64,000 nt of DNA from Armatimonadota bacterium (GTDB lineage Bacteria > Armatimonadota > UBA5829 > DTJY01): assembly GCA_023511795.1 (NCBI GenBank), contig JAIMAU010000001.1, forward strand, positions 574,384 through 638,383. Reading direction: 5' to 3'. Under the pieces are notes generated by a model. It ran no database searches, had not been told where the DNA came from, and saw nothing but the letters and a program-made list of their open reading frames with translations. The translations under genes were made by a program, and so were the position numbers. Positions 43-52,349 of the stretch are shown piece by piece (the first letter of the stretch is position 1; each line of letters opens with the position of its first letter).

Positions 43-58
43 TGGCACACAAATTGCT
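43..58 (+). promoter_or_regulatory. sigma-54 (RpoN) type promoter upstream of flgB
   Basis: The -24 element TGGCAC (43-48) and the -12 element TTGCT (54-58) place GG and GC exactly 10 nt apart, as RpoN promoters require. The predicted transcript would start near position 69, about 30 nt before the flgB ATG. The same signature recurs before the operon at 9416 and before the gene at 36771. Confidence 0.75.
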
Positions 59-9340: not shown

Positions 9341-9356
9341 TGGCACGGAAATTGCT
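9341..9356 (+). promoter_or_regulatory. sigma-54 promoter of the cheX/flgE/mot/fli operon
   Basis: TGGCACGGAAATTGCT matches the RpoN consensus TGGCACG-N4-TTGCW essentially perfectly, with GG (9342-9343) and GC (9354-9355) 10 nt apart. Transcription would begin near 9367, about 50 nt before the first gene at 9416. It follows the terminator of the preceding operon. Confidence 0.88.
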
Positions 9357-22811: not shown

Positions 22812-23585
22812 TTGCCAAAGACAGACCTTCTGTGGAAACGATACAAGCAGGGTAGGGATTTAGATGCGCGAGAGCAATTGATTCTAAACTATGCGTATCT
22901 GGCAAAGTATGTTGTTGACCGTATGACTGTTCGGCCAAGTGCGGTTATGGATTACGACGACTTGCTTGGGCATGCCGTCGTTGGGCTTATCGATGCTGTA
23001 GAGAAGTTCGACCCCTCTAGGGACGTCAAATTTGAAACCTATGCCGTAACTCGAATTAGAGGGGCCGTACTTGATGCGATCAAAAGTCTTGATTGGATGC
23101 CTAGAACCATTCGTTCACTGGAGCAAGAGCTTAGACAAACGTTCGCACGCTTAGAAGCAGAACTTGGCCGCCCAGCAACTGATCAAGAGGTCGCTTCATC
23201 ACTTGGAATAACTGTTGATGCTCTGAATGAACGACTTGCGGATATAGCTCAGTCGGCGCTTCTCTCGTTTGAAGAGCTCTTATCTTTTAGAGAAGAGAAT
23301 TTTGGCGAAAGTGGTATCTATTCCTTAAACGACCCCTCGGACGACCCCATTTTGGCTGCCGAGTTGAATGAACGAAGCAAGCTACTTGCTAAGGCAATTA
23401 CCGACCTTCCCGAAAAAGAAAAGCTTGTAATTAGCTTATACTATAATGACGGGTTGACGCTAAAAGAGATTGCAAAAGTCCTAGGCGTCACTGAATCAAG
23501 AGTCTGCCAATTGCATTCCAAAGCGGTTGTAAGGCTGCAAGGGAAATTGGCAAGGTATGCTGATTTGCTTGTTGCCGCGGCATAA
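22812..23585 (+). CDS. fliA: RNA polymerase sigma factor for flagellar operon, FliA (sigma-28)
   Basis: FliA directs late flagellar transcription and is held inactive by FlgM (31593). Region 2 (AYLAKYVVDRM, then FETYAVTRIRGAVLDAIKSLDWMPRTIR in segments), region 3 and region 4 helix-turn-helix (GLTLKEIAKVLGVTESRVCQLHSKAV in segments) are intact. A TTG at 22812, nine bases after GGAGG (22798-22802), is the best start. The TTG at 22794 precedes that ribosome-binding site. Length is 257 residues. Confidence 0.95.
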   Translation: MPKTDLLWKRYKQGRDLDAREQLILNYAYLAKYVVDRMTVRPSAVMDYDDLLGHAVVGLIDAVEKFDPSRDVKFETYAVTRIRGAVLDAIKSLDWMPRTIRSLEQELRQTFARLEAELGRPATDQEVASSLGITVDALNERLADIAQSALLSFEELLSFREENFGESGIYSLNDPSDDPILAAELNERSKLLAKAITDLPEKEKLVISLYYNDGLTLKEIAKVLGVTESRVCQLHSKAVVRLQGKLARYADLLVAAA

Positions 23586-27165: not shown

Positions 27166-27981
27166 CTACCTGATTAGTGCCAGTAGCGCTTGTGGCGCTG
27201 CGTTCGCCTGCGTAAGCATTGCAACGCCAGCCTGCAGTAGAATCTGGTTGCGTGTAAACGCTACCATTTCTGCTGCCATGTCGCTGTCTCTGATCGAGCT
27301 TTCGGATGCGGCGATGTTTTCCTTCGCTACGCCAAGGGACGCTATGTTGGACTCGAGGTCCTTTTGTGCCGCACCTAACTGGGCTCTCATTGTAGATACC
27401 GTGTTTATTGCGGTATCAAGTAGTGAGATAGCGCCCTGAGCGTCAGTAGTAACATCTATTGAAGCTACACCCAGAGCTTCTGCAGAGACGTTTTCAATGC
27501 TTATGGTTGTCGTCTGGTTGGCGTTTGCACCTACCTGGAAAACTAAACCGCTAGCAGTGCCATCCAACAGCTTCTTCGTGCCGAACTGCGTGTTCGCAGA
27601 AATTCGGTTAAGAGCTGATATCGCAGAATCAATCTGCGTCTGGTCTGCTTGCAAAGCGGTTTCATCGTTTGCACCTTCGTTTGCCGCGTGCAGTGCCAGG
27701 TTGCGCATTGTGCGAAGCAGGTTCTGGACTTCGGCCAGAGCACCCTCAGCTGTCTTTATCATATTGACTGCATCGCTTGAGTTTGCTATTGCCTGGCCGA
27801 GACCACTAATCTGGCTGCGCAGGTTTTCAGAAATTGCCAGTCCTGCTGGGTCATCTGCTGCTCGGTTGATTCTAAAACCAGATGACAACCGTTCGATTGA
27901 CGCAGCTAATGCAGAGTCAGTGCCCTGCAACTGACGGTGCGCATTGAGCGCTGCTGCATTCAGGTTGATCCGTAAAGACAT
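27166..27981 (-). CDS. hag/fliC: flagellin (filament subunit)
   Basis: This 271-residue flagellin consists almost only of the D0/D1 domains: the N-terminal LRINLNAAALNAHRQL and SGFRINRAADDPAGLAISENLRSQI segments, a short central region (about 130-185) rich in Thr, Ala and Ser, and a C-terminal domain ending LTQANAAPQALLALI. The missing D2/D3 is typical of minimal flagellins. The ATG follows AAGGAGGAGGATAGAAC, a strong ribosome-binding site with overlapping GGA motifs. A long structured leader precedes it and FliW is encoded next to it. Confidence 0.96.
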   Translation of the reverse strand: MSLRINLNAAALNAHRQLQGTDSALAASIERLSSGFRINRAADDPAGLAISENLRSQISGLGQAIANSSDAVNMIKTAEGALAEVQNLLRTMRNLALHAANEGANDETALQADQTQIDSAISALNRISANTQFGTKKLLDGTASGLVFQVGANANQTTTISIENVSAEALGVASIDVTTDAQGAISLLDTAINTVSTMRAQLGAAQKDLESNIASLGVAKENIAASESSIRDSDMAAEMVAFTRNQILLQAGVAMLTQANAAPQALLALIR

Positions 27982-35854: not shown

Positions 35855-36535
35855 CTAAACTGTTCTAGGCATTTGGTTGATGACTTTGTCGAGTGTTTGG
35901 TCTATCGATTGGATGACTTTTTGATTTGCTTCGTATGTTCGTAACGCGCTAATCATAGAGACCATCTCAAGTACGACGTTAACATTCGAACCTTCTAAAC
36001 TTCCCTGTATAACTTTTCCCGGGGTATTTGAACTATCGGTGTGAATGCGAAGCTTGTTAACAATTGTGCCGCTAACTTTCACGTTCCCTTCGGGTTCCAC
36101 CGACCAATTATCACTGGTTATTGTTATCGGCCCATTTTCGCCAAGAACGAGGTTTCCTTCTTGTGTAACCAACTGCCCGGCCTGATTGAGCTTGAAATTT
36201 CCACTTCTTGTAATAATTTCGCCGGTGGGTGTACTAACTACGAAAAAACCAGGGCCATCAATTGCCAAGTTAGTCTTAGATTCCGTGTCAATCATCTGAC
36301 CAATGGTTTCGTCTTGCTTGGTGTTAAGTATTGGGATTACACATTTGACTTGGGTGGCAGATGGTCGAGACTCAGCACCATGAGCGTTTGAGAGTTCAGC
36401 TATAAAATTGGAAAATGAAACCCGCGTGCGTTTGAATCCTGGAGTGCTTACGTTTGCTAAGTTGTTTGAGATAATATCTTGTTGGTCCAGTTGCGCTATC
36501 ATTGCTGACGCAGATGCATATAAACCCTGAATCAC
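35855..36535 (-). CDS. flgF: flagellar rod protein FlgF
   Basis: FlgF is a proximal rod subunit of the FlgG family. It has the N-terminal signature [20 protein letters not shown] and the C-terminal helix EGSNVNVVLEMVSMISALRTYEANQKVIQSID in segments. At 226 residues it is a little short. It opens the minus-strand flagellar run. A weak sigma-54-like sequence on the minus strand (36594-36607, -12 element TTGA instead of TTGC) lies upstream. Confidence 0.93.
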   Translation of the reverse strand: MIQGLYASASAMIAQLDQQDIISNNLANVSTPGFKRTRVSFSNFIAELSNAHGAESRPSATQVKCVIPILNTKQDETIGQMIDTESKTNLAIDGPGFFVVSTPTGEIITRSGNFKLNQAGQLVTQEGNLVLGENGPITITSDNWSVEPEGNVKVSGTIVNKLRIHTDSSNTPGKVIQGSLEGSNVNVVLEMVSMISALRTYEANQKVIQSIDQTLDKVINQMPRTV

Positions 36536-36664
36536 TTTGCGTTACCTCCGCATTACTTTTCGACCGTCTGGCGGTGTAACTTTAGCGGTATTTTCAAATG
36601 TCTTGCCAGTAGCCAAATTCCATAAGTTCAATGTCGTTTAGGCAAATGATGCCCTACAATTCCC

Positions 36665-36680
36665 TGGCATAGTAATTGCT
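36665..36680 (+). promoter_or_regulatory. sigma-54 type promoter of the glycosyltransferase block
   Basis: TGGCATAGTAATTGCT (36665-36680) has GG (36666-36667) and GC (36678-36679) exactly 10 nt apart with good flanking agreement to the RpoN consensus. Transcription would begin near 36691 and read into the phosphatase at 36771. It lies in the divergent gap between flgF and the sugar genes. Confidence 0.7.
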
Positions 36681-36770
36681 GTATATTCAGTGCTCTGAAT
36701 GCTATCGAAAGGTGCTGCTTGCATTAAGAACGGTAACTAATAAGTATGTGGGGAGATATTCTCCAGGCAA

Positions 36771-37265
36771 ATGGATATTAGGCGGCATTCTGATTACAAA
36801 CCTATAAAAATTGCTTTCTTCGATGTGGACGGCGTCCTTACGGATGGAACAAAGTTCTATCACGAAGACGGCACAGTTTCTAAGCTTTTTCACGACCAAG
36901 ATAGCACAGGCTTGCGAATGTTAACCCAAAATGGGGTGGAGGTCATTATAATTTCCGCCGATGAGCGCGTTAATAGAAATTGGGCGGAACATCAAAGCCT
37001 GCCTTTCTATTGCACAGCTGACAAGGCAGAAACCGTAGCAGAGTTATTGGACAAGAAGGGATATGATGGCAAATCGGCGGCTTTTGTGGGAGATGACCTG
37101 AGGGATCTTGAAGCCATGAAGCTTGTTAGATATTCAATGGCGCCTGCAAATGCATCGCAGCAAGTGCGTCGAGTGGCGAGGTTTCGGCTTCGCCGTGCCG
37201 GTGGCTCGGGTGCTGGGCGTGAGGCGGCAGAATTAATTTTGCGGATAAACCGTTTTATTTTTTAG
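36771..37265 (+). CDS. KdsC-family HAD phosphatase
   Basis: A 164-residue HAD hydrolase without cap domain, of the KdsC (3-deoxy-manno-octulosonate 8-phosphate phosphatase) type. Catalytic Asp18 and Asp20 are in FFDVDGVLTDG, Ser62 in motif II, and Asp108/Asp109 of GDDLRD in motif IV. The C-terminal GGSGAGREAAELIL is typical of tetrameric KdsC-like enzymes. No kdsA or kdsB is in the window, so the substrate is probably another sugar phosphate. With the kinase/nucleotidyltransferase fusion that follows, it may prepare an activated sugar (inference). Confidence 0.85.
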   Translation: MDIRRHSDYKPIKIAFFDVDGVLTDGTKFYHEDGTVSKLFHDQDSTGLRMLTQNGVEVIIISADERVNRNWAEHQSLPFYCTADKAETVAELLDKKGYDGKSAAFVGDDLRDLEAMKLVRYSMAPANASQQVRRVARFRLRRAGGSGAGREAAELILRINRFIF

Positions 37266-37331
37266 AAATATCGCTTGTTACTGCGATTGAATATGTGGTG
37301 TTCTAAATTTCAGGAAGTAAAGGAGTAGCCA

Positions 37332-39101
37332 ATGAGAAGCGTGGTGTTGCTCGCGGCAGGAATGGGAACAAGGCTTGGCTCAATGACAGAAAAGTTGCCC
37401 AAATGCCTTATTCCATTTAATGGTAAAACGCTTCTAGAGTACACCATTGAGAAGCTCCTACGCTTTAACTTTGATAATATCGTGGTAGTTGCTGGTTATC
37501 GCCATGAACAAGTGCGCCGGATTGTTCCGGATATCTTGGTGAACGAGGATTATGCCACCACCCAGCCTCCTTATTCCCTCCGTATAGGTCTTGAAAGAGT
37601 CCCTCATGGACCTGTTCTTGTCATGGATGCGGATATTTATTTCGAGGATCGTGTGCTCGAGGAAATTCTCAAAATGGGGGACAGGTCTTTTGTTATTACC
37701 TACACTGCCGAATCTAAGCTGGAGCCAGGTAGCCGTGTGAATGTTAAAGATGGTCGAGTCGTTCAAATCGGACGCTATATTTCACCCTTATTCCCTTGGC
37801 AAATCCACAGCGGGATTACTCATATTAGTTCGGCCGACTTTGATTACTACAAGTATCTTGCCAATCAGGATACATTCCGCACAACCGAAATGCATGTTCT
37901 TTTGAATGAATTGTGCAAGAAAAGACCAATTCTTGCTATCAATATGGAGAAAGCAAGGGTTGAGCGAAAAACAGGGGATATCTTTCTCGATGGAGGTTCA
38001 TTTTCTGACGTATTAGTGACCGAGGAGGACAATATAATAAGGAAGGAAAGCGCGAAGGATACGGAAAGGCTAATAAACGAGATATATTATCTCCGTGATT
38101 TGCCTGAAGACCTTCGGCCCTATTTTACAGAGCTTTTGGATTACAGCGTCGAAGGACCAGTTGTTTGGTATACGATGCCACATTATCCTCAGCCTTCGCT
38201 TAAGAAGCTTATTCTTTCAGGCCAGTTTACCGCACTTGATGCAGTAGAAGTTCTTACTAGAATAGTTAAATTCCTAGTTGAAAAGGTCTACGTGCTGCGT
38301 CGTATCGATGCCCCGGCAAGCTACACTGCTTCTGTGCACTTTAATAGGGTTGATGTTCGCCGTGAAATGGCTTTAAAGCGAGCTCCAATATTAAAGCAGG
38401 TTTTTGGGGCAAAGCATTACATAATTAACGGCTTGGAGTATGAGAATCCGTTTGACATAATCGAAAAGATTAGAACTCGTGTAAAATTGGTGAGCACTCT
38501 TCAACCGCCGTATCTGTGCATGATTCACGGCGATCCACATTTCGACAACCTGCTGATTGACACGTCGCAGACGCCTTGCGGTTTTCGCCTGGTAGACCCG
38601 AAGGGTTTCTGTGCCGGAGACCCCATGTACGATATATCTAAGCTTTTCCATGATTTTCAAGGTCTTTACGACTTTATATATGAATACATGTTTGATTTGA
38701 ATTGGCAACTGCAAGGTGATGTTTTTGAAGCCGAATTCCAAATTCATAACTGTGCCGCGCTTCGAGAGTTTCAAAAGATTAATGAATATTTCCCAACAAT
38801 TGTTTCACAGTTTTTTGAGAGCGACCCAAACTGGTATTTGCGCATGAAATTCATTGAGGCAATTCATTTTAATTGCCTTCAGCCGTTTCATATTAAAGGA
38901 GATGGCATAGAGTCGAAAGCAATTGCTATGTTTCTTGTTGGCGTTCAGCAGATGAACAACTTTTGGGAAATGGTCCCACCCGACCTCAAGAAGGAAGATA
39001 TGAAGTATAAGTTGGTTAATATCAACACTATTGAGGACTTTACATACGCACGAAGCCTGATTAAGTCAGATTTGAATGAAGAACAAGCAAAAGCAGCTTG
39101 A
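37332..39101 (+). CDS. nucleotidyltransferase fused to APH/choline-kinase-like domain
   Basis: A bifunctional 589-residue cytosolic enzyme. Residues 1-220 form an NTP transferase with the G-x-G-T-R loop (10-14) and metal-binding Asp99/Asp101 (LVMDAD). This resembles LicC or sugar-1-phosphate nucleotidyltransferases. Residues about 225-560 form a phosphotransferase (APH family) with the catalytic HGDPHFDN (399-406) and DPKG (422-425). Such a fusion can phosphorylate a small molecule or sugar and then activate it with a nucleotide. Sequence alone does not give the substrate. Lies 66 nt after the phosphatase. Confidence 0.88.
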   Translation: MRSVVLLAAGMGTRLGSMTEKLPKCLIPFNGKTLLEYTIEKLLRFNFDNIVVVAGYRHEQVRRIVPDILVNEDYATTQPPYSLRIGLERVPHGPVLVMDADIYFEDRVLEEILKMGDRSFVITYTAESKLEPGSRVNVKDGRVVQIGRYISPLFPWQIHSGITHISSADFDYYKYLANQDTFRTTEMHVLLNELCKKRPILAINMEKARVERKTGDIFLDGGSFSDVLVTEEDNIIRKESAKDTERLINEIYYLRDLPEDLRPYFTELLDYSVEGPVVWYTMPHYPQPSLKKLILSGQFTALDAVEVLTRIVKFLVEKVYVLRRIDAPASYTASVHFNRVDVRREMALKRAPILKQVFGAKHYIINGLEYENPFDIIEKIRTRVKLVSTLQPPYLCMIHGDPHFDNLLIDTSQTPCGFRLVDPKGFCAGDPMYDISKLFHDFQGLYDFIYEYMFDLNWQLQGDVFEAEFQIHNCAALREFQKINEYFPTIVSQFFESDPNWYLRMKFIEAIHFNCLQPFHIKGDGIESKAIAMFLVGVQQMNNFWEMVPPDLKKEDMKYKLVNINTIEDFTYARSLIKSDLNEEQAKAA

Positions 39102-39125
39102 GAATACCAAAACGGAGAAGTGCGA

Positions 39126-42100
39126 ATGGTAGAAAAAAAGGTTCTAGGAAGGCATGAGAGAAGAGTAGCTTGTTATGCGACGTTACCGTTCCAATTGCGG
39201 TCTCTCAAACCAATCGCTGATGGATTTGAGGATTCACTTATTAGCTATAGTCATAAGGAGATAATGGATTGGCAGCCAGATGTTATTATTACTGCCGATG
39301 TCTCACAGTTGCCTCTTTTTCGTGAGTACTGCGATGCCCACAATGTCTTATTAATAGGTATGAGACATGGTCCAGCTACAAAATACACTTCTCCTGAAAA
39401 AGAATACTCCGTCGCAGACTATGTTTGCGCCAGCGATTGGGATGTGGACGATTTTACGAAGGCTGATGTTAGACCGAAACGAGGTTTCTTGCTTACCGGC
39501 AATCCCTGGGTAGACGACGTATTCAAAATTCCCGAGCGCAAACTTTGTAAGGATGCTCCTACAATTCTTTTTGCTCCAACCTATAATCCTGAAGTCAGCG
39601 CGGCTAAGTTTTTCGAAGATAAGCTTGCAAATCTTATCCATTCGGTATATCCAAAAAGTAAAATCATTATCAAACCGCATCCTGCTATTCTACAATATGA
39701 CCATCCGTATGTTGTTCAACACCGCGAAATATTTCGCCGATGGATTAGACAGTGGCTTGCTATATGCCAGGATTCGAATCTTGTTTCATTGATTGATGAC
39801 CCCACAGCATCAATTAGTCGGTTCTTTCCAGATGCGGATATTCTAATTTCTGATGGCTCATCGTTAATATTTGAGTTCATGGTGCTAAATCGCCCAATTC
39901 TTTTGTATACGAGCCCTGAGAAAGTAGGAATATGGGAGTATGATTCAAGGGCGCTTGGCAATGCCTGGCGCGATGTGGGAACGGAGTTCACTACGCGAGA
40001 GGAGTTCATTTTTGCTTTAAAGAACGCTTTTGTCAATCATTCCGAAAAACACAGCGCAAAGCAGAAGCAGTACACAAATATTCTTTATGGCAACTACCAA
40101 GATGGGCGATCAACAGAACGAGTAATCCAAAGCATCAAAAATCTGCCTTATCTGGATATAGCGCTTCTAGCGGACAAAAATGCAAGCCATGTAAGAGAGT
40201 TCAGCGAAGGGTTGAGCAATATTCTCAGGAATAGCACCATACATGTTCTTGAAAACATAGAACCTGAGGAAAAAGACTTTCAGCTAAATGCCTTTTTTGA
40301 GAAGAGCGATTCACAGTTTGTTATGGTGATTGATTATGATGGGGGAAAGAAGTTGCAATGTGCAGATTTCGTTAGCCGTTCGCTACAAATTATGTCGCAA
40401 GACGAATCAATTGCAGCTGCCGGCAGGTTGGTAGATGGGTGGATTGAACGCAGTTTTGCAATTTTTGATAGAAAAAAGGTCTTGGGCGTGGGTGGATTCT
40501 CCAAGTCAGATTCTGACTTATGCATGAGGCTTTTAGAGAAAGGTTGGAAAGTAATCTCTGCATGGGACGATAGACCGGTGATTAGATTTGAAAGCGGCTT
40601 TTATGATGAGGAATACGGCGTGCGGTGGATGGCAGAAGAAGCAGTTATGCGTGTTGGATGGAGTGTGTGCAACGTTAAGAAATTCCCACCTTTATGCCTC
40701 ACATTCGATGTTGTGTGTTCGAATTCCAAACATTATCCAAACTTCCCATTTAACCTAAAAATATGCGAAGGCGATGCAACAATTAAAGAAATTCGCTTTG
40801 ATAAGTCCTATAAGAAAGAAAAAGTTGAGATTTTGCTTCCTTGTATTACAGGACCCCATATTCTTCGATTTATAAGCGATGAGTCCTATGTCCCTCGCGA
40901 GATTGGCATAAACGGCGACCCTAGAAGGCTTTCAGTAATGGTTAACAATGTAAAACTAAATGAGCAATTCCTACATAAACATATACAGACTGAATGCCCA
41001 GTTCGTTTAATTGCCTTCTACTTGCCGCAGTTTCATCCCATACCTGAAAACGATAAGTGGTGGGGAAAAGGCTTTACGGATTGGGATAATGTTCAAAAAG
41101 CTAAACCATTATTTAAGGGACACTACCAACCACACGTGCCCGCAGACTTAGGTTATTATGACCTTCGTAACCCTGAAGTTCGTGAAGCGCAAGCTGAAAT
41201 GGCAAAAAAATATGGGATAGAAGGCTTTTGTTACTGGCATTATTGGTTCAATGGAAAAATGCTGCTAGAGAGACCATTTAATGAGGTGCTTGAGTCTGGA
41301 GAGCCTGATTTTCCCTTCTGTCTTGCGTGGGCTAATGAGAATTGGACGCGAAATTGGGATGGGCATGAAAACCTAATTCTTCAGCCTCAGGAGTATGGTG
41401 GAGAGGCTGATGATATTGCTCATTTCGAATGGTTGCTAAAGGCATTTAGAGACCCACGATACATTAAAGTAGATGGGAAGCCCTTATTCCTTATATACAG
41501 ACCCATGGATATCCCAAATGTTGAAAAAACGCTTGCATTGTGGCGGCAGTTAGCTAGGAGTTCTGGGTTGCAAGGCTTGTATGTAACCGCCATCAGAATC
41601 AGTCTCGACAAAACGGTAGACGGGTACTGGTTAAAGCAAGGTTTCGATGCTGAGCTACTATTTCAGCCATCTTTTGGAAAGCTGTGGGATAAATATGGAG
41701 CGGGTGAACTCCCGGGGGTTCTTAATAAATATGGCGAGGGTGATGGCGAGCCTGGGCTTATTTTGAATTACAATGACGCGTGGCGTGTAATGGCTGGCAT
41801 GGAAGGCAACTGTTTGCGAACAGTAGTGCCTTCTTGGGATAACACTCCACGTAGAAAATATGGGGCTTTCATTCTAAGAGATTCTACGCCTAAGGCATAT
41901 GGCGAGTGGCTAAAACTTGAAATTGAGCGTGTGAGCAGTAGGCCTCCAGAACAGCGGATTGTCTTTATCAATGCTTGGAATGAATGGGGTGAGGGTAATC
42001 ATTTGGAGCCAGATGTTCGCTTCGGGCATGGCTACCTCGAGGCTACCAAGCGAGCAATTATTGGTGTTCAAACAGCAAGGCTTTATTCAGTGGGTAGGTT

Positions 42101-44408
42101 GCACGAAGCTGTTTCACTACTAGAAGAGCATATCATGGCAGATCAGAATGATGCTCAGGCATATAACGACCTTGGCGTCCTGTACTTCGAAAAAGGCGAA
42201 ATTGAGAAAGCGCAATATTGCCTTGAGAAATCGCTTGCGCTAGATGGGACCGATGATACTGTTCGGAAAAACCTTATGGACCTTTATCTTGCTTGCGGGC
42301 AATCGGAAAGAGTAGCAAGGCTAACTAGCAATGCCCAAGAGGATTCTAACTATCCGAGCTGCAAGTCTGCCAGGCCTAGGATAATTGCAATACTTGCCGC
42401 TTACAATGAAGGCGACGTTATATACCATGTAATTCGGGATTTAATCGAACAAGATATTGAAGTATACCTTCTAAACCATCATTCAACAGACAACACAGTT
42501 GAAGAAGCATCAAAATGGTTGGGCAAAGGTCTTATAGGCATAGAATTGTTTCCTGAAGAGAGTGGTCTCGACATTCCAAATGATGTATTTGCTCTGCGCT
42601 ATATTCTTATGCGCAAGGAGCAGCTTGTTCGAAAATTTGGTCCTGGTTGGTACATCAACGCAGATGCAGATGAGTTCCGCGAGTCGCCCTGGCCTGGCCT
42701 GAATCTTCGCGAGGGAATCGAACGTGTAGACGCATTGGGATACAATACAATCAATTTTGCAATTTTTGATTTTAAGCCAACTGATAATTCATTTGTGCCT
42801 GGAGATGATGTCCGCAAATACTTGACCGGTTACTCCGCACCTGCTGTTTCGTGGGACAAAATGCAGGCAAGATGTTGGAAGTATTGGGGCCAGGATTTCA
42901 AACTTTGGCATACCGGTGGCCATCTAGTTCAATTCGAAGGTAGGCGTGTGTTTCCCATCCCGTTTATCCTCAGGCATTACCCAATTAGAAGCGAAGCACA
43001 TGGGGAGACTAAGATATTCGGCCAACGGAAAAACCGCTTTGATGAAAATGAAAAAGCCGCTAACTGGCATGTACAATATGACGATATCACTCGAGAAAAT
43101 AAGAGATTCCTGTGGGACAAGTCCCAGCTTACCCAATATAACAGAGACGAAGTATGCCGCCAAATCCATAAAAGATTCGCTGGTTTGGAACTATCTGAGG
43201 ATAATAGCGAAATAAGGATTGCAATTGTAGTTCTAGTCCATAACCAGCTCGATGACACAAGAAAGTGCCTGGAGAGCATAAGGCGACATACAAACCTGCC
43301 GTATGAGCTTGTGGTGGTGGATAATGGCTCCACAGATGGCACAGAGCAGTATCTTGATGAGATTAAGACCAAATGGAATTCAAAACATTGCAGGGCAATC
43401 AAAGTCATACGCCATGAGACTAATCTTGGTTATGCGGCAGGCAACAACTCAGGTATTTTGGCCTCTGAGGGTGCATATGTTGTTATTCTAAACAACGATA
43501 CAGTAGTTACTCCTGGTTGGCTTGAGCGCCTGGTTAGATGTGCGGATGATGACCCACGCATTGGTATTGTTGGGCCTGTGAGCAATAATGTCTCAGGTTC
43601 TCAACATGTCGAGAGCGTTGATTATGACCAGTCTACTCTAAAGGGGCTTGATGAATTCGCCGAGAAGTGGGCTGCTTTGCATGATAGGCAGATTAGACCA
43701 ATAACGAGAGTTGTTGGTTTCTGTATGTTGATAAAACGTGAGGTAATCGAAACAATCGGCGGCTTTGACCCAAGATTTGGGATAGGTAACTTCGAGGATG
43801 ATGATTTTTCAATTCGTGCCGCAATTGCAGGATATCATTCTGTAATAGGGCAGGACTGTTTTATTCACCACACTGGCAGTCGAACTTTTGTTGGTCAAAA
43901 GATTGATCATAATGCGCTTATGCGAAAAAATTGGGACCTTTTTAAAGCAAAGTGGGGTATACCAGCTGAACTACCTTTAGGTGTACCGTACAACATGTCA
44001 TTTCTTCTAAAGCAAACGTTCGATCCGGAGCGCCATCGTTGCCCACTGGAAATCTCGAGTTCATCTCTTGTGTGGTTTGTTGCACCAGAGTGGGATAAGT
44101 TCGAAACATGGTGTCCGGTAATTGAAGAATATTTACGCTCAGATGTATCAAAAAAAGATGCGCTTCTTAGCATGTATGCTGGACCACGCACAGCAAGTGA
44201 TTCAAGTGCGGCAGCCGAACTGGTGGCTGATTTTTTGGCAAAACTGGGTATCGATGAGGGTCAAGCTCCTGACATTGAAATAACAGAAGAGCTTCCTAAA
44301 AGCGGAAATGTGCAAATTATACTGTCGAACGGCAGGTTGGATGAATTTTTGCAATTTCAGTACCCTGGCCAATGCGTTCGCATAGATGAATTGCGGAAGG
44401 CAGCGTAG
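39126..44408 (+). CDS. giant multidomain glycosyltransferase (about 1760 residues)
   Basis: Domains in order: CDP-glycerol glycerophosphotransferase-like GT-B (about 1-340, with IIIKPHPAI and [11 protein letters not shown]); a degenerate GT2-like segment (about 345-505); a WbsX/GH99-like domain (about 625-980, [20 protein letters not shown] in part, and [17 protein letters not shown]); TPRs (about 990-1065); a GT2-like domain (about 1085-1350, ADADE at 1181-1185); a second GT2 domain (about 1365-1620, [10 protein letters not shown] and LNNDT); and a C-terminal tail. Each domain would add or process glycan units, so one polypeptide may build a whole oligosaccharide. ATG 39126 follows GGAG; position after the sigma-54 promoter suggests flagellin or surface glycosylation. 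Confidence 0.88.
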   Translation: [1760 protein letters not shown]

Positions 44409-44459
44409 TTAGGCATGACAACATAATAGTTGATTTTGTGTCGGAGGCGAGATATTAAA

Positions 44460-46688
44460 ATGCCTTTACGAGTTACAAAAGCCAAGACAGTCGGTAATGA
44501 GAAACAGTTGGGGCTTGATGCACTAAGAGAAAAACGGTGGGCCGAGGCGGCCGACTATTTGGAAAAAGCACTCAATGGTTCGCCCTCAGATGTTGAAATT
44601 ATGAATGCACTGGCAGTCGCATATAGTGCCCTGGGCAACGGTAAAGCTGCTCGCACAATACTTGGGCAGGCAGTTCGGGTGTCGCCAGAGTGTCCCGAAA
44701 CATATAAAAATCTTGCAGTGCTACTTGCGCGCGAGGGCAGGGTATTAGAAGCGGCGGATAATGCTTGTCAAGCAGTCGAACTTTCTCCTTCTAATCCAGA
44801 AAATGTCCGAGTGCTTCGAGATGTACAAGAACTGGTTCGGAAACTTTCACATTCGACAAAGAAAGAAAAAAAGTTAAACCGGCGTATTGGAGGACCAACG
44901 CGCACTGAGATTAATGAGCGCCTTGCCAAGATTAATTCAGTTATTAAAAAGGCACAGTCTATTAGCGAACAAGTGCCTACTCTTTCACTATGCATGATTG
45001 TAAAGAACGAAGAAGCAAATCTCGGTTCTTGTCTGCGGAGTGTAAAGGGCATTGTGAATGAAATAATCATTGTTGATACCGGGTCAACAGACCGCACGCC
45101 CGAGATTGCACAATCTTATGGGGCAAAGGTTTATCATTTTCCATGGACTGATAACTATGCTGAAGCTCGGAATAAGTCATTAAGCTATGCAAATGGAACG
45201 TGGATTCTCATACTGGATGCTGATGAGCAGCTTGATAAATCTGCAGGCCCAGTAATTCTTAAGGCAATAAAAGAACCCGTTGCGGATGCGTTTGCATTGC
45301 TTTTCCACAACTATATGTCCGAAAATCAAGGTCCAGATATGTTTATCCATCGTACTTGCCGGTTGTTCCGCAACAAGCTCGAATATCGGTATGAAGGACG
45401 AGTGCATGAACGTATAGTCCCTTCTATTGAGCGGTCGGGTGGGAAAATGGCATATCTCGATGCGGTAATCCACCATTTTGGCTATATGCCTGCTGTAATG
45501 TTGGAACGTTGCAAGCATGAGCGGTATGTTCGCCTTCTTGAAGCAGACCTTGCAGAGAACCCAAATGACCCATATTGCCTCTACAATCTAGCTTCTGTCT
45601 ACATAACAAAAGGCAACTATAAGGAGGCGCTTGGATATCTTAAGAAGGCTGAAGAATATATTTCGCGGAGTCATGAATTTGCCGCCGCCACTTATTCACA
45701 TATGGCTCATGCCTTTTGTGAACTTGGGAGTCCAGAAGAGGCTATAAATGCATTGGAGCGGGCGCAAAATAAAGGCATATGTCATCCTGAATTGAATTTT
45801 GCGAAGGGGAATGCTCTTCTAGGCCTTGGGAGATATGCAGAAGCAATCACTGAGTTCGTATCTGCTGTCCAGCTCGGCCAAAGTAATAGATGGGTAGGCG
45901 ATCCTGGTGCGTTTGGATATAAGGCATATTTTGGAATAGCTAGTGCTTGCATGGGATTGCAAGATTACCAGAAGGCTGCTGAATATGCCGAGCTGGTGGT
46001 GAAAGAAAACCCTGGTGACGCTAAGGCACATGAACTCCTAACCATTGCCTATCTTCGTTTGGGAAATACAGCTCAAGCTGAAAAACATGGAAAGGAGTGG
46101 CTTCGATTATCGCCGGGTGATGCCCGGGCAGTGATGGGTTTCGCCCAGGTTTTGCAGGCAAGCGGTCAATTTAAGGAGGCAAGGAATCTCTATGTTTCGC
46201 TTCTAGATTTGGATTGCGAAGCCGCTGAGCTTCATTTCAACCTGGGTGTTTGTGCAGAGGCACTTAATGAGCTTGAAGATGCTAGTCGGCATTTTACTAG
46301 GGCGATTGAATTGCAGCCTGATTTTGTCGAGGCGCATACCAACTTAGGACGGTGTCACGCGAAACAAGGGCGAATCTCTGAAGCGCTTGCTTGTTTTGCA
46401 CATGCTGTGGAAATAGACCCGGGGTATGCAAATGCTTATTTTAATGCAGGGGATATTCTGTATTCGGCTGGCCGCTATGAGGATGCTATAAATGTCTATC
46501 AGAATGGCTTGATGTGTTATCCAAATAACCCGGCCGCATTCCTTGCCATAGGAAATTGCTACTTCCGCATGGGGGCGTATGAAGCCGCTATTATGGGTTA
46601 TCGCCAAGCTTTGGTTCTTCGCCCGAATTACCCTGAGGCCGAAGCTAATCTTTCTAAGGCTCTACAGCATGTAAAATCCTCGGTTTAA
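44460..46688 (+). CDS. TPR-GT2-TPR glycosyltransferase (SunS-like)
   Basis: N-terminal TPRs (about 5-130) are followed by a GT2 domain (about 170-370). That domain has LSLCMIVKNEEANLGSCLRS in part, VDTGSTDRTPEIA, LDADEQLDKSAG, and GRVHERIVP, in the arrangement of SunS-type protein glycosyltransferases. Eight or more TPRs follow (about 380-740). TPR-linked GT2 enzymes often modify proteins, so a peptide acceptor such as flagellin is plausible but unproven. The ATG at 44460 follows GGAGGCGAG; the longer frame from 44430 (TTG) lacks a ribosome-binding site. Confidence 0.88.
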   Translation: MPLRVTKAKTVGNEKQLGLDALREKRWAEAADYLEKALNGSPSDVEIMNALAVAYSALGNGKAARTILGQAVRVSPECPETYKNLAVLLAREGRVLEAADNACQAVELSPSNPENVRVLRDVQELVRKLSHSTKKEKKLNRRIGGPTRTEINERLAKINSVIKKAQSISEQVPTLSLCMIVKNEEANLGSCLRSVKGIVNEIIIVDTGSTDRTPEIAQSYGAKVYHFPWTDNYAEARNKSLSYANGTWILILDADEQLDKSAGPVILKAIKEPVADAFALLFHNYMSENQGPDMFIHRTCRLFRNKLEYRYEGRVHERIVPSIERSGGKMAYLDAVIHHFGYMPAVMLERCKHERYVRLLEADLAENPNDPYCLYNLASVYITKGNYKEALGYLKKAEEYISRSHEFAAATYSHMAHAFCELGSPEEAINALERAQNKGICHPELNFAKGNALLGLGRYAEAITEFVSAVQLGQSNRWVGDPGAFGYKAYFGIASACMGLQDYQKAAEYAELVVKENPGDAKAHELLTIAYLRLGNTAQAEKHGKEWLRLSPGDARAVMGFAQVLQASGQFKEARNLYVSLLDLDCEAAELHFNLGVCAEALNELEDASRHFTRAIELQPDFVEAHTNLGRCHAKQGRISEALACFAHAVEIDPGYANAYFNAGDILYSAGRYEDAINVYQNGLMCYPNNPAAFLAIGNCYFRMGAYEAAIMGYRQALVLRPNYPEAEANLSKALQHVKSSV

Positions 46689-46765: not shown

Positions 46766-47707
46766 ATGGAACGCCGCGAATTAGGGAGAACAGGTATCTG
46801 GGTGTCAAGGCTTGCCTTCGGGACGCTGCCTTTCAAACTTCACGAAATGCCAATTAGCGATGGCGCGGAGCTTCTTGTTGCCGCGGCAGAAATGGGCATC
46901 AATTTTTTTGACCTCGCAGAAATTTACGGTTCGTATCCTCACATGCAGAAGGCACTTAAGCATATGGAGTTACCTCCTATAATTGCCGCCAAGTCCATGG
47001 CAAAGGATGCAAGCTCCATGATCACATCAATCAATACTGCACTTCGAGAAATTGGCGTACCAAGGCTTGACATTTTCAAGCTTCATAACGTTGATAGCGT
47101 CGAGGACTTGAATAGTAGATTGCCTGCGTGGGAAGAGCTAGTTAAGGCTAAATCAAAGGGATTAATTCGTGCAATCGGTGTGTCTACACATTCCTGCCGC
47201 GTGCTAGAGGAAATCATTAGTTGGCCTGAGTTGGATGTTGTTCTAGTGGTTTTTAATAGAGGTTTTAAGGGTGTTGTAGAGGGAACAATGGCAGAGATGC
47301 TGGATGGCATCAAGGCAGCTCATAGCGCTGGCAAGGGTGTCTACATTATGAAGGCGCTTGGCGGTGGACTACTGTATGCGAATGCTAGGGAAGCTTTGGA
47401 ATTCGCATTTAGCGTTGAAGAAGCTGATTCGGTCGCCGTCGGAATGCATAGCCTCCAAGAAGTAATATACAATGTTGCTGTGTGCAAGGGCGAGGCTGTT
47501 CCGCCTTCCGTCGAAACGAGTCTAAAGCAGCGTAAAAGACGCTGGCATGTTCGTCCATTCTGTCGAGGTTGTGGGGCTTGCATATCCGCTTGCCGTTATG
47601 GAGCGCTCCGCATGGGTGAGAAAACGCCAGTTGTGGATGAGGAGAAGTGCATACTGTGTGGATATTGCGGCTTCGAATGTCCTGCGATGGCGATTAAAAT
47701 ATTGTAG
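46766..47707 (+). CDS. aldo/keto reductase with C-terminal 2[4Fe-4S] ferredoxin
   Basis: Residues 1-250 form an aldo/keto reductase barrel with the catalytic tetrad Asp49, Tyr54, Lys76 and His107. Residues 262-313 add two [4Fe-4S] clusters (C266, C269, C272, C276 and C295, C298, C301, C305). Such fusions are common in anaerobes and microaerophiles and may take electrons from ferredoxin rather than only NADPH. Substrate unknown. It follows the TPR-glycosyltransferase after 77 nt and probably begins another transcription unit. Confidence 0.9.
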   Translation: MERRELGRTGIWVSRLAFGTLPFKLHEMPISDGAELLVAAAEMGINFFDLAEIYGSYPHMQKALKHMELPPIIAAKSMAKDASSMITSINTALREIGVPRLDIFKLHNVDSVEDLNSRLPAWEELVKAKSKGLIRAIGVSTHSCRVLEEIISWPELDVVLVVFNRGFKGVVEGTMAEMLDGIKAAHSAGKGVYIMKALGGGLLYANAREALEFAFSVEEADSVAVGMHSLQEVIYNVAVCKGEAVPPSVETSLKQRKRRWHVRPFCRGCGACISACRYGALRMGEKTPVVDEEKCILCGYCGFECPAMAIKIL

Positions 47708-47816
47708 GCGACTAATTTTTAAAAAGGTCTTTTTGCAAACAAGACAGAGGACTAAAAGCATCCAGTGGCATGCGCTCCTGCTTTGTCTTCGTTTAACTTG
47801 ATAAGAACCGATAAAC

Positions 47817-47845
47817 TCGTCATTTTGGAGTGGACTTGTTATAAT
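47817..47845 (+). promoter_or_regulatory. sigma-70-like promoter before the isomerase gene
   Basis: TATAAT at 47840-47845 is preceded after 17 nt by TCGTCA (47817-47822), four of six matches to TTGACA. It lies 30 nt before the ATG at 47875. Confidence 0.45.
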
Positions 47846-47874
47846 ATGCGAGTCATACCAAGTTGGAGATGCCA

Positions 47875-48690
47875 ATGAAATTTTCGATTTGCAACGAGCT
47901 TTTTGAAAATTGGCCTATAGAGAAAGTATTCGTTACTGCTGCCGAAATCGGATACGATGGCGTTGAGATTGCTCCGTTCACTCTCGCGTCATCGGTTTAC
48001 GAGATCACAGATGTACGACGCCGAGAGATTGTTCGAGCTGCCGCTGATGCTGGTGTTGAGATCGTTGGGCTTCACTGGTTGCTAGTGAAACCAGAAGGAT
48101 TGCATATCAGTCATCCCGATGCAGATGTTCGTAGGCGAACGCGTGACTACCTTGATGCGCTGATTTGCTTGTGCAGTGATCTCGGCGGTCGCGTTCTCAT
48201 TTTTGGCTCGCCAAAGCAGAGGAACGTGCACGAAAGCCTAACTTACGAGCAAGCTTGGAATTATGCACGTGAAACATTTTCGCATTGTGCGGAAAAGGCA
48301 CAGGAAAATGACGTCTACCTTTGCATAGAGGCGTTACCTCCGCGGGAGACCAACTTCATAAACACAGTTGAGGAAGCGCTGGCAATGGTTCGTGCGGTTG
48401 GTAAGCCTAACTTTCGCACAATGGTTGATGTAAAAAGCATGTGTTCTGAGGGACGGTCAATACCGGAGATTGTTTGTAGTGCAGGTGAACATATTATGCA
48501 TGTTCATGCTAATGACGCAAGTGGACGAGGGCCTGGGATGGGCGACACAGATTTTCACGTTGTGTCGTCAGCCCTTCGCGAAATCAGGTATAATGGCTAT
48601 GTTTCAGTAGAGGTTTTCGATTACAAGCCCGACCCAATAACAATTGCAAAGCAAAGTTTAGCTTATTTGAGGGAAACGTTTGGTTGTTAA
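47875..48690 (+). CDS. sugar phosphate isomerase/epimerase (AP-endonuclease-2-type TIM barrel)
   Basis: A 271-residue protein of the xylose-isomerase-like TIM-barrel family. The N-terminal strand KFSICNELFENWPIEKVF, EIGYDGVEIAPF, and metal-binding acidic residues in CIEALPP, VDVKSM and HVHANDASGRGPGMGDTDF are all present. These enzymes isomerise or epimerise sugars or inositol derivatives. Start ATG 47875 follows GGAG at 47865-47868; ATG 47869 and TTG 47863 are possible but poorly placed. Confidence 0.88.
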   Translation: MKFSICNELFENWPIEKVFVTAAEIGYDGVEIAPFTLASSVYEITDVRRREIVRAAADAGVEIVGLHWLLVKPEGLHISHPDADVRRRTRDYLDALICLCSDLGGRVLIFGSPKQRNVHESLTYEQAWNYARETFSHCAEKAQENDVYLCIEALPPRETNFINTVEEALAMVRAVGKPNFRTMVDVKSMCSEGRSIPEIVCSAGEHIMHVHANDASGRGPGMGDTDFHVVSSALREIRYNGYVSVEVFDYKPDPITIAKQSLAYLRETFGC

Positions 48691-48708
48691 ATATTCACTG
48701 AGAATTTA

Positions 48709-48730
48709 TCTCTTCCAGTAATAGAAGAGA
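48709..48730 (+). repeat. hairpin upstream of cysS
   Basis: TCTCTTC (48709-48715) pairs with GAAGAGA (48724-48730) around an 8-nt loop, in the 71-nt gap between the isomerase gene and cysS. AT-rich sequence follows but no continuous T-run. It may be a weak terminator or leader stem. Confidence 0.35.
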
Positions 48731-48761
48731 ATTGAAAACTTAATTTTGAGATGATTCAGCC

Positions 48762-50141
48762 ATGACTATCAGATTCTTCAATACGCTAACCCGCGAAAAA
48801 GACGAATTTCGAGCAATAAATGACATGAAGGTTGGACTCTATACCTGTGGGCCAACCGTATATGACTTCGCCCATATTGGAAACTGGCGCACCTACTTAT
48901 TCGAAGATATTCTTCGGCGACACCTCGAATACCGCGGTTTCGAGGTAACACACGTGATGAATATCACGGATGTCGACGACAAGACAATACGTGGCGCTAG
49001 GGAAAAAGGCATAAGTCTCAACGAGTATACTCTTCCATTCATTAAGGCTTTTTATGAGGACAGGGACCATCTAAACATCGAGCCGGCGCATGTATATCCC
49101 AGGGCGACCGAGCACATTCAGGAGATGGTTGCTCTGATAAAGAAGCTTCTTGACAAAGGTATAGCATATAAAGCTGAAGACGGCTCGATTTACTACGACA
49201 TCTCAAAATTTCCTGGATACGGCAAACTTTCTCATTTTAAGATAGGAGAGTTGAAAGCTGGCGCTCGGGTTAGCTCCGATGAATATGAAAAAGAACAAGT
49301 CTCCGATTTTGCTCTTTGGAAGGCTTGGGATGAGGCAGACGGCAATGTATATTGGGACACTGAGCTTGGAAGAGGCCGACCCGGTTGGCATATCGAATGT
49401 TCAGCAATGAGCATGAAGTATTTGGGCGAAACGTTTGACATTCATACCGGCGGCGTTGATAACATCTTTCCACATCATGAAAACGAAATAGCCCAGTCTG
49501 AGGCTGCAACCGGAAAACCATTCGTCAACTATTGGCTTCATTCAGAACATCTCCTCGTAGAAAATCGCAAAATGAGCAAATCACTTGGCAATTTCTACAC
49601 GCTTAGAGATGTAATGGCTCGAGGATATGATCCACTGGCGTTTAGGTATTTGGTCCTTGGCGCACATTATCGGTCAAAATTGAACTTCACTTGGCAGGCA
49701 CTGGATGCTGCTAAAACAGCGCTTGAGAACTTATATGAATTCGTAGCGCGACTCGATAGGGAAAACCCAACTGGCCTTGATGACGCGGTTGTGCGCTGGA
49801 CGAGAGCGTTTGATGAAGCAATGGATGACGATTTGAATACGCCGGTTGCGCTAGCTGCGGTTTTTAGCTTGATTAAAGAGGTCAATATTCACGGCCGTGG
49901 TGGTCGGGAAGTCTTCGCTGCAATGGTGAACTTTGACCGAATCCTAGGTCTCAAACTTGCCGAGCGAGGGATGCCTGTTGAAGTGGAAATACCCTCGGAT
50001 ATAATAAGACTCGTCGAAGAACGTCAGAAGGCAAGAAAGGCACGCGATTTTGCTGCCGCCGACCGCATCCGCGATGAGATTCTAGCTGCCGGATACATTG
50101 TAGAGGATACCCCCGAGGGCCCTAGAGTAAAGAAGAAATAG
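48762..50141 (+). CDS. cysS: cysteinyl-tRNA synthetase
   Basis: CysS charges tRNA-Cys. Class I motifs are complete: HIGN (38-41) and KMSKS (270-274), with zinc ligands Cys29, Cys213, His238 and Glu242 for cysteine selection. The C-terminal helical domain and anticodon part (RQKARKARDFAAADRIRDEI in part) are present. Length is 459 residues. It is a housekeeping gene within a sugar-metabolism block, and may form an operon with the PIG-L-like deacetylase that follows. Confidence 0.97.
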   Translation: MTIRFFNTLTREKDEFRAINDMKVGLYTCGPTVYDFAHIGNWRTYLFEDILRRHLEYRGFEVTHVMNITDVDDKTIRGAREKGISLNEYTLPFIKAFYEDRDHLNIEPAHVYPRATEHIQEMVALIKKLLDKGIAYKAEDGSIYYDISKFPGYGKLSHFKIGELKAGARVSSDEYEKEQVSDFALWKAWDEADGNVYWDTELGRGRPGWHIECSAMSMKYLGETFDIHTGGVDNIFPHHENEIAQSEAATGKPFVNYWLHSEHLLVENRKMSKSLGNFYTLRDVMARGYDPLAFRYLVLGAHYRSKLNFTWQALDAAKTALENLYEFVARLDRENPTGLDDAVVRWTRAFDEAMDDDLNTPVALAAVFSLIKEVNIHGRGGREVFAAMVNFDRILGLKLAERGMPVEVEIPSDIIRLVEERQKARKARDFAAADRIRDEILAAGYIVEDTPEGPRVKKK

Positions 50142-50209
50142 GGGGTTTACAATTTTTTTAACCATGGGCTCCAAGGGATAATAGAGCAGTATGTTTGAGG
50201 AGGCTAATT

Positions 50210-50911
50210 ATGCGGATTTTAGCAGTTGGGGCGCATCCCGACGATATAGAAATCCTATGCGCTGGCACACTTGCTAAATATGCAAGCCAAGGCCATGACA
50301 TTATTATGTGCCATGCATGTATTGGGGATAAAGGGCATTTCCACATCCCAAATGATGAGCTTGCGAAAATTAGGTGCAAAGAGGCTCAGCTATCGGCAAG
50401 CAGGATTGGAGCTGAGAGCATATCGCTGGGCATACCAGACTGTGAAATTTTCAATAATCGAGAGACGTTGGCGGTATTCATTGATATGATTCGCGTAACC
50501 AAGCCCGACTTAATAATTACGCACTCGCCAACTGACTATATGCCTGACCATTGCGTAGTTAGTGGCTTGGTTTATGATGCATCTTTCCATGCCTCGTTAC
50601 CTAATTGGAAGACAGAGCACGAATATCACGACAAAGTTCCACCGGTTATCTATATGGATAACGTTGCTGGGGTGGACTTTGAACCAGGTGAATATGTGGA
50701 TATTACGGATTTTATTGAAAAAAAGAAGGAAATGATGATGTGTCATCAAAGTCAAGTCGTCTGGCTAAAAGAGCACGATAACTTAGATGTTATTCAGTTC
50801 ATAGAAGATTGCGCTAAGTTTCGAGGATGGCAGTGTGGTGTTCAATACGCGGAAGCTTTCCGTACTGTCAACCGCTGGCCTAGACTGAGGACTCAGCGGT
50901 TGCTGCCTTGA
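50210..50911 (+). CDS. PIG-L/LmbE family deacetylase
   Basis: A zinc-dependent N-acetyl-sugar deacetylase of 233 residues. The zinc site AHPDD (8-12) and a second His in PDHCVVSG are present, as in MshB, BshB and PIG-L. GAGGAGG precedes the ATG at 50210; the reading frame from 50195 starts inside that ribosome-binding site. It stands next to cysS, as BshB1-type genes (bacillithiol) sometimes do, but DegT and Gfo/Idh genes follow, so an amino-sugar role is equally likely. Confidence 0.9.
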   Translation: MRILAVGAHPDDIEILCAGTLAKYASQGHDIIMCHACIGDKGHFHIPNDELAKIRCKEAQLSASRIGAESISLGIPDCEIFNNRETLAVFIDMIRVTKPDLIITHSPTDYMPDHCVVSGLVYDASFHASLPNWKTEHEYHDKVPPVIYMDNVAGVDFEPGEYVDITDFIEKKKEMMMCHQSQVVWLKEHDNLDVIQFIEDCAKFRGWQCGVQYAEAFRTVNRWPRLRTQRLLP

Positions 50912-50986
50912 TTTTATACGTTTGGAGAGAGGTTTTTCCCAATCCAACATTTTATTTGATTTAATTTCAATATTGGAGGTACAGCT

Positions 50987-52252
50987 ATGTCAGCGGATAA
51001 ACTAGCAATCAATGGCGGAACGCCTGTTAGAACAGCTCCATTTCCACCATGGCCCTATTTTTGGGATGATATGAAAGCTGCTGTAAAGGAAGTGCTGGAT
51101 AGCGGAAAAGTCAACTACTGGACAGGCTTTCGCGGAATGGAGTTCCAGAAGCGATATGCTGATTACTGCGGAGTTAAGCATGCAATAATGTTAAATTCTG
51201 GCACGAGCGCACTGCATGTGGCATATGCCGCCGCAGGAATTGGTCCCGGAGACGAAGTCATAGTTCCATCTTATACTTTTATTGCCACTGCTGCTGCTGT
51301 TTTGCACCAGAATGCTATCCCAATTTTCGCTGATGTTGAGGAAAAGACGTGGAACATTGATCCAAAATCGGTTGAAGCCCTCATTACTGAGCGCACGAAG
51401 GCCATTGTGCCTGTTCATCTTCATGGTCATCCAGCAGACATGGATGCAATTAACGCAATTGCCGCAAAGCACGGATTAGTTGTGATAGAGGATGCTGCTC
51501 AGGCACACGGCGCTGAGTATAAGGGTAAGAAAATAGGTTCCCTTGGAGATTTGGCAGCATTCAGCTTTTGCCAGGACAAAATTATCACAACTGGCGGCGA
51601 AGGCGGGGCAGTGACTACTGACGATGATGATTATGCTGAAATTGCGCGCAGCTTCAAAGACCATGGTTATTGGGAAGAAGAGCGTAAGGACCTTCTCCAG
51701 ATGGAGGCACTCTATCCATATATCCACCACCGGATGGGATTTAACTACCGCATGACTGAAATGCAAACAGTTATTGGAATGGCAGCCCTTGAGCGTCTTG
51801 ATGAATGGGTTGAAAAGCGACGGGCTAATGCTCATTTCCTAACTAAGCGGTTGTTAGAGATTCCACAGGTCGAGCCGCCGTATGAGTCTCCAGATGTAAA
51901 GCATGCGTTCTATAAGTATGCTTTCAAGATTAAACCTGAGATGCTGAATTGCACGAGAGACGAATTTATCCATGCTCTACGTGCCGAAGGTATTCCTTGT
52001 GTTGCTGGTGTTCCGCCGGAAAACTACAAAGAAGAAGTTTTCCTAAAAATGGTTGGTTATGGAAATACCAAGTGCCCGTTTAAGTGTCCGTGGTACAAAG
52101 GTAACGTAGATTATAGCAAGGTTGACTGCCCAACTGCACGAAGGATTGGCATGCAGACCATTTGGCTGTTGGTGCATCCAACAATAGATGAGCAATGTCT
52201 TGAAGACATGGCAACTGCTGTCGCTAAGGTTGCGACGGCTTATGCAAAGTAA
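50987..52252 (+). CDS. DegT/DnrJ/EryC1/StrS-family PLP aminotransferase
   Basis: A 421-residue PLP enzyme. The PLP lysine is Lys198 (SFCQDKIITTGGEGG), with Asp169 in VIEDAAQAHG and the N-terminal LNSGTSALHVAY phosphate-binding loop. Family members transaminate keto-sugars or scyllo-inosose in nucleotide-sugar and aminocyclitol pathways. GGAGG precedes the ATG by about ten bases. A terminator follows at 52270. Confidence 0.93.
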   Translation: MSADKLAINGGTPVRTAPFPPWPYFWDDMKAAVKEVLDSGKVNYWTGFRGMEFQKRYADYCGVKHAIMLNSGTSALHVAYAAAGIGPGDEVIVPSYTFIATAAAVLHQNAIPIFADVEEKTWNIDPKSVEALITERTKAIVPVHLHGHPADMDAINAIAAKHGLVVIEDAAQAHGAEYKGKKIGSLGDLAAFSFCQDKIITTGGEGGAVTTDDDDYAEIARSFKDHGYWEEERKDLLQMEALYPYIHHRMGFNYRMTEMQTVIGMAALERLDEWVEKRRANAHFLTKRLLEIPQVEPPYESPDVKHAFYKYAFKIKPEMLNCTRDEFIHALRAEGIPCVAGVPPENYKEEVFLKMVGYGNTKCPFKCPWYKGNVDYSKVDCPTARRIGMQTIWLLVHPTIDEQCLEDMATAVAKVATAYAK

Positions 52253-52269
52253 ATGGAGTTAAAAGAAGC

Positions 52270-52294
52270 GGGGGTTTAACCCCCTCTAATTTTT
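52270..52294 (+). terminator. rho-independent terminator after the DegT aminotransferase
   Basis: GGGGG (52270-52274) pairs with CCCCC (52280-52284) around TTTAA, followed by TCTAATTTTT. A second hairpin (52297-52332, GCCGAAGCAA with TTGC and TTCGGC) follows and precedes the next ribosome-binding site GGGAGG. Confidence 0.75.
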
Positions 52295-52296
52295 AG

Positions 52297-52332
52297 GCCG
52301 AAGCAAGCAAAAAGTTTTAGTTGCTTTTCGGC
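52297..52332 (+). repeat. leader hairpin before the Gfo/Idh gene
   Basis: GCCGAAGCAA (52297-52306) pairs with TTGC (52321-52324) plus TTCGGC (52327-52332). It ends a few bases before the GGGAGG (52335-52340) of the gene at 52350 and follows a terminator, so it may belong to the leader of a new transcript. Confidence 0.4.
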
Positions 52333-52349
52333 TTGGGAGGTTCCCTGAT

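Follow-up and report, generated by a model that had tools for sequence, protein, structure and literature searches.

A sigma-54-linked gene block with an FgtA-like transferase beside the flagellar genes of an Armatimonadota bacterium: a probable flagellin decoration system

The block and its flagellar neighbourhood

Four genes on the plus strand stand beside a flagellar gene region in the draft genome of an Armatimonadota bacterium (3.09 Mb), which raises the question of what they modify, by which chemistry, and under whose control they are expressed. The positions given here are those of the window, the whole 64-kb stretch of DNA that was analysed, unless a locus or residue number is stated. 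A preliminary description had read the block as a co-regulated glycosylation module, possibly for flagellin, consisting of a KdsC-like phosphatase, a kinase/nucleotidyltransferase fusion, a very long glycosyltransferase and a TPR-GT2 protein. The open reading frames and their domain calls agree with this order: P0001 (36771..37265, 164 aa), P0002 (37332..39101, 589 aa), P0003 (39120..44408, 1762 aa, possibly starting at the ATG at 39126) and P0004 (44430..46688, 752 aa, with a TTG start and its first ATG at 44460), all on the plus strand and separated by 66, 18 and 21 bp.

The flagellar identity of the neighbours was likewise confirmed. The block is divergent from flgF (35855..36535, minus strand), which opens the operon flgF-flgG-flgA-flgH-flgI-...-flgK-flgL-fliW-fliC-fliD, running from 36535 to 25082, and a gene for a FliA-like sigma factor is located at 22794-23585. 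Apart from FlgL, the only flagellin in the assembly is FliC (27166..27981, minus strand), a 271-aa protein whose short middle part is rich in Ser and Thr and which is the proposed target of the block. The GC content of the block (43-48%) is too close to that of the window (46%) to serve as a sign of recent transfer. In class relatives, the genes upstream of flgF are unrelated, so this exact position is not a conserved slot for glycosylation genes. Downstream of the block, at 46766-53366, lie genes for an aldo/keto reductase with a 4Fe-4S tail, a TIM-barrel epimerase-like protein, CysS, a PIG-L deacetylase, a DegT aminotransferase and a Gfo/Idh oxidoreductase, which look like a separate group.

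The sigma-54 element and the regulation of the block

The block is preceded by the sigma-54 -24/-12 element TGGCATAGTAATTGCT (36665..36680, plus strand), which ends 90 bp before the first ATG of P0001. Its exact spacing was borne out, as was the occurrence of the same signature before the two plus-strand flagellar operons, namely TGGCACACAAATTGCT (43..58, plus strand), located between rpoN2 and flgB, and TGGCACGGAAATTGCT (9341..9356, plus strand), both of which are exact. However, the window contains seven exact TGGC-N7-TTGC cores, as opposed to about 1.6 expected from its composition, so that an exact core on its own has little weight as evidence. Of these cores, three stand directly before operons; the other four have no such position, and positions 6 and 7 of the 36665 motif are TA instead of the consensus CG. 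Both observations fit the alternative that the 36665 site does not function as a sigma-54 promoter and that the block is expressed constitutively or from a different promoter.

The case for the site becomes stronger when its scoring rank, its conservation, the lack of a competing promoter and the linked regulators are considered. Both strands of 78 kb were scored with a hand-chosen weighting of the consensus, and the site shared fifth place. The intergenic region differs from that of the sister species G001 by 21 substitutions in 235 bp, and the site lies within a substitution-free run of 58 bp (36653-36710); a run of at least 58 bp covering the site has a probability of P = 0.012 if the substitutions are placed at random. 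A sigma-70-like promoter was not found on the plus strand of the intergenic region. The genome has two rpoN paralogues, and the order just before the window is a hybrid histidine kinase, an NtrC-type activator, a histidine kinase, a receiver protein and rpoN2 (rpoN2 region, L030:12900-14312), followed by the 43-58 site and flgB. The activator, three genes before rpoN2, is a sigma-54 activator with a receiver domain and a Fis-type HTH. In addition, GGGCATAAAAATTGCT, one base off the TGGC/TTGC core, is found about 100 bp before a related glycosyltransferase gene of the class relative G018. In view of this evidence, a non-functional 36665 site is improbable, and sigma-54 control of the block, including its presumed dependence on rpoN, is very plausible from the sequence. 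Two further sites were noted: TGGCATGGAAATTGCT, a sigma-54-like site near the start of the kinase gene upstream of rpoN2, and TGGCAAGACATTTGA (36608-36594, minus strand), a candidate sigma-54 site for flgF that was dropped, its -12 element being damaged in G001 (TTTGA to TTTAA).

Such regulation has precedents. In Xanthomonas, RpoN2, encoded in the flagellar cluster, controls the flagellin glycosylation genes gigX1-10 (PMC8657755), and jhp0106 of H. pylori is a second case (PMC5368276). The RpoN2/FleQ regulon of Xanthomonas shares with this genome a second rpoN within the flagellar cluster (PMC8657755), whereas the gene order around rpoN is different, and the two are likened by layout.

The FgtA-like transferase P0003

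The protein first described as a glycosyltransferase of about 1760 residues does contain GT2 and WbsX modules, but its N-terminal domain, which is of another kind, had been missed. Residues 15-377 form an FgtA/CDP-glycerol-phosphotransferase-like (Glyphos_transf) domain (PF04464, 7.7e-16), followed by a stretch with no domain assigned (378-625), WbsX (630-976), TPR (990-1065), a probable GT2-like domain read by eye (1080-1355) and a C-terminal GT2 (1367-1590). In a direct comparison, residues 15-377 are 48% identical to FgtA (PA1091) of Pseudomonas aeruginosa over 363 aa (E=1e-106), and the GT2 region also aligns with the GT2 of FgtA (22%, E=2e-8). When the first 527 residues were compared with plasmid records by tblastn, two matches were obtained, the best from P. 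aeruginosa with 50% over 349 aa (E = 3e-110). In that P. aeruginosa record, the order is flgBCDEFGHIJKL, a methyltransferase, a HAD, an NTP transferase, FgtA of 1694 aa, a B-type fliC, flaG and fliD, which fits the published description of PA1088-PA1091 (PMC11833859). NZ_CP131792.1 (L074), an 847-kb P. aeruginosa record labelled as a plasmid, carries a flg...fliC...fleQSR region with a B-type flagellin and may be part of a chromosome or a replicon with the wrong label.

The homology to FgtA makes transfer of a phospho-group, with a CDP compound as its source, the most likely activity of the N-terminal domain of P0003. The label of a glycosyltransferase block is thus correct for the GT domains and misses the predicted phosphodiester chemistry. 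P0003 is a clear relative of FgtA, the enzyme that puts a phosphate-bearing sugar on the b-type flagellin of P. aeruginosa, and decoration of the flagellar filament is thus the very probable role of the block.

WbsX and PF04464 are families typical of surface polysaccharides, and WbsX and GT2 are common in the corresponding loci, so their presence here would also suit a block that serves the synthesis or decoration of a cell-surface polysaccharide (capsule, O-antigen or a teichoic-acid-like phosphoglycan) and adjoins the flagellar genes by chance. The presence of WbsX in 18 of the 28 class genomes was counted against a flagellin-specific reading, and the combination of HAD, kinase and NTP transferase recurs in capsule-like loci. 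However, none of the four genes encodes an export protein or a polymerase, and the best match to the phosphotransferase domain in the plasmid collection is FgtA from a flagellin locus, with 50% as opposed to 25% for the next. The homologues of P0004 and of the P0003 C-terminus described below also point to the flagellum. A surface polysaccharide as the product is therefore placed below flagellin in our ranking and appears quite improbable.

P0004 and a GT2 and TPR-GT2 pair in class relatives

P0004 contains a GT2 domain (PF00535, 1.2e-25) with TPRs on both sides. Its homologues are found in 12 of 19 class genomes with FlgI and in none of the nine without it (Fisher p=0.0017, which serves as a guide and not as a strict test, the genomes being related); the remaining seven of the 19 flagellated genomes have no homologue at the threshold applied. 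In class relatives, the P0003 C-terminal GT2 (53-57%) and P0004 (42-45%) have homologues that are fused to each other. In G012, the GT2 (53%) and P0004 (43%) homologues form one protein of 1400 aa exactly between fliW and fliC; G019 has the same fusion between these genes, spread over two contigs, and in G027 it adjoins fliW at a contig end. Homologues of both P0004 and the P0003 C-terminus lie inside the flagellar operon in the g10 species. In G018 (L093:4225-12282), a 2686-aa protein ends in a P0003-type GT2 (53%), with a full-length orthologue of P0004 (48%) after it, but the N-terminal domains of the 2686-aa protein differ from those of P0003 and comprise several GT2, radical SAM/SPASM, methyltransferase and GT1. 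Judged from these arrangements, the class appears to carry a constant flagellin pair of GT2 and TPR-GT2 with exchangeable partners.

A protein combining TPR and a glycosyltransferase is known from the flagellar system of Caulobacter in FlmG, whose TPR domain binds flagellin (PMC7591256). By analogy, the TPR parts of the block may bind flagellin as well. The resemblance is confined to this combination: FlmG has a GT-B transferase that works with pseudaminic acid, whereas in P0004 a GT2 takes the place of the FlmG-class GT-B domain after the TPR.

P0001 and P0002, the putative precursor enzymes

P0001 is a KdsC-type HAD phosphatase according to its NCBIfam matches (NF058599, 1.9e-26; TIGR01670, 1.6e-25; both below the curated cut-offs) and its match to PDB 3mn1 (5.5e-23). 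A comparison with PA1089, the PSP/ThrH-like HAD of P. aeruginosa, gave no significant similarity and no recognisable homology beyond the HAD motif; the best match to PA1089 elsewhere in the genome is weak (E=2e-4). A PA1088-like SAM methyltransferase was not found among the four block genes, and the best match to PA1088 in the genome is weak (E=5e-5) and far from the block.

P0002 consists of a LicC-like cytidylyltransferase (residues 1-175) and an APH-type kinase (about 224-545), with the domain calls NTP_transf_3 and APH. The nucleotidyltransferase domain, which contains the motif LAAGMGTRL, is similar to PA1090 (31% over 144 aa, E=2e-12) and to LicC (1jyk, E=1e-11), and the catalytic motifs expected of an APH-type kinase are present in the C-terminal half (K238, E250, H399-G400-D401, N406 and D422). 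An AlphaFold2 model from four sequences reached a pLDDT of 48, and its APH matches in Foldseek, in line with Pfam, carry weak weight. A choline kinase/cytidylyltransferase of the LicCA type likewise combines an APH-type kinase with a LicC-like cytidylyltransferase, which here are one protein, but the domains are just distantly similar and the likeness is one of domain similarity.

A scan of the genome collection with the kinase alignment yielded only three loci, none of them flagellar. In distant bacteria, relatives of the kinase half are found in capsule-like loci, not beside flagella, where a separate HAD and NTP transferase adjoin them, so P0002 may derive from a capsule precursor set. Among these relatives (L025, L026, L033, L035, L075, L076), several have a degenerate nucleotidyltransferase-like N-terminal part.

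A HAD, a kinase and a nucleotidyltransferase together follow the logic of NDP-heptose routes (HddA/GmhB/HddC), and the substrates of KdsC-type HADs are sugar-acid phosphates. The gene set of the block and the KdsC type of P0001 would thus also suit a system in which flagellin is glycosylated, while P0001 and P0002 yield an ordinary NDP-sugar as sugar donor and not a CDP-activated phospho-group. But HddA is a GHMP kinase, as opposed to the APH type of P0002, the nucleotidyltransferase half of P0002 is LicC-like, and a CDP-phospho donor would be required for the FgtA-like domain in any case, as CD0244 of Clostridioides difficile and FgtA suggest by analogy. On this evidence, an ordinary NDP-sugar as the product is rather unlikely, and we regard a CDP-activated precursor as the preferred reading.

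Comparison with known phosphate-glycan flagellin systems

The known systems add a deoxyhexose- or GlcNAc-phosphate-(di)methylthreonine to flagellin (PMC11833859, PMC10714395, PMC4441256). In P. aeruginosa, mutants in the first three genes of PA1088-PA1091 are left with the deoxyhexose alone, and flagellin is unglycosylated in the fgtA mutant (PMC11833859). In C. difficile, CD0242 is proposed to make CDP-threonine and CD0244 to move phosphothreonine onto GlcNAc, while the role of the HAD CD0241 was called the most challenging prediction (PMC10714395). In a BLASTP survey from 2014, the flagella-linked type A set was confined to C. difficile and to PAO1-type strains of P. aeruginosa (PMC4441256).

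The block shares with the b-type locus PA1088-PA1091 the phosphotransferase (48% identical), its joining with GT2 in one long protein, the company of NTP transferase and HAD genes, and the position beside flagellar genes. It differs in the KdsC-type HAD instead of the PSP/ThrH type, the fusion of the nucleotidyltransferase to an APH kinase, the lack of a methyltransferase, the insertion of WbsX, TPR and GT2 in the FgtA-like protein, and the additional TPR-GT2 protein; moreover, it is divergent from flgF, whereas the P. aeruginosa locus lies just before fliC. The type A locus CD0240-CD0244 resembles the block by its description, with a GT, a HAD, a LicC-like nucleotidyltransferase, a TagF-like phosphotransferase and a location in the flagellar region (PMC10714395, PMC4441256). 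Unlike the block, it consists of separate genes with a PSP/ThrH-like HAD and a methyltransferase, and a kinase is described neither for it nor for the b-type locus.

The TagF-like phosphotransferase, GT2, LicC-like nucleotidyltransferase and flagellar location of the FgtA b-type and type A systems are therefore all found here, but we do not assign the block to them in the strict sense, because two of their defining genes, for the PSP/ThrH-like HAD and the SAM methyltransferase, were looked for and not found in it. The block most likely works in the same way as these systems. The new protein architecture claimed in the preliminary description holds for the inserted WbsX/TPR/GT2 modules and for the fusion of kinase and cytidylyltransferase, but is overstated for the central fusion of phosphotransferase and GT2, which is already known from FgtA. 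Novelty, as far as the present comparisons reach, lies in the kinase fusion, the KdsC-type HAD, the inserted modules and the phylum of the host.

Proposed mechanism

The domains, homologies, gene order, promoter element, linked rpoN and activator genes and co-occurrence with flagella are directly observed, and they make it likely that the block is a sigma-54-controlled system for flagellin decoration that works like FgtA (b-type) of P. aeruginosa and type A of C. difficile. The earlier proposal of a co-regulated flagellin glycosylation module is thereby well supported, namely by the homology to FgtA, the adjacency to flgF-fliD, the linked rpoN and activator, and the GT modules of class relatives in the flagellar operon.

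The putative order of steps would be as follows. A small compound with a hydroxyl group would be phosphorylated by the APH-type kinase half of P0002, and P0001, the KdsC-type HAD, would cleave off a phosphate at another point of this precursor route; CDP-X would then arise when the LicC-like half of P0002 joins the phosphate to CTP. P0004 and the GT2/WbsX modules of P0003 would glycosylate FliC in the cytoplasm prior to export, and the FgtA-like N-terminal domain of P0003 would transfer phospho-X from CDP-X to this predicted FliC glycan. The linked RpoN2 and NtrC-type activator would switch on transcription of the block together with the flagellar structural genes.

More tentatively, the group transferred could be a phosphodiester other than methylthreonine, a possibility that we consider open to considerable doubt. 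The kinase-cytidylyltransferase would in this case make an undescribed CDP-X, the FgtA-like enzyme would add phospho-X to a longer glycan that it partly builds itself, and the constant GT2 and TPR-GT2 pair would be combined with exchangeable decorating modules in the class.

Significance

An FgtA-like system is now found in Armatimonadota, where a comparison of 291 genomes from the phylum located the FgtA-like region in the two species of this genus and nowhere else. The restriction to one genus suggests horizontal transfer of the system. In the known systems, the making of the phosphorylated precursor is the step understood with the least certainty, as the assessment of CD0241 illustrates (PMC10714395); with the kinase fused to the cytidylyltransferase in P0002, this step would be assayable in one protein. 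Finally, the flagellar pair of GT2 and TPR-GT2 is joined to N-terminal partner domains that vary between genera.
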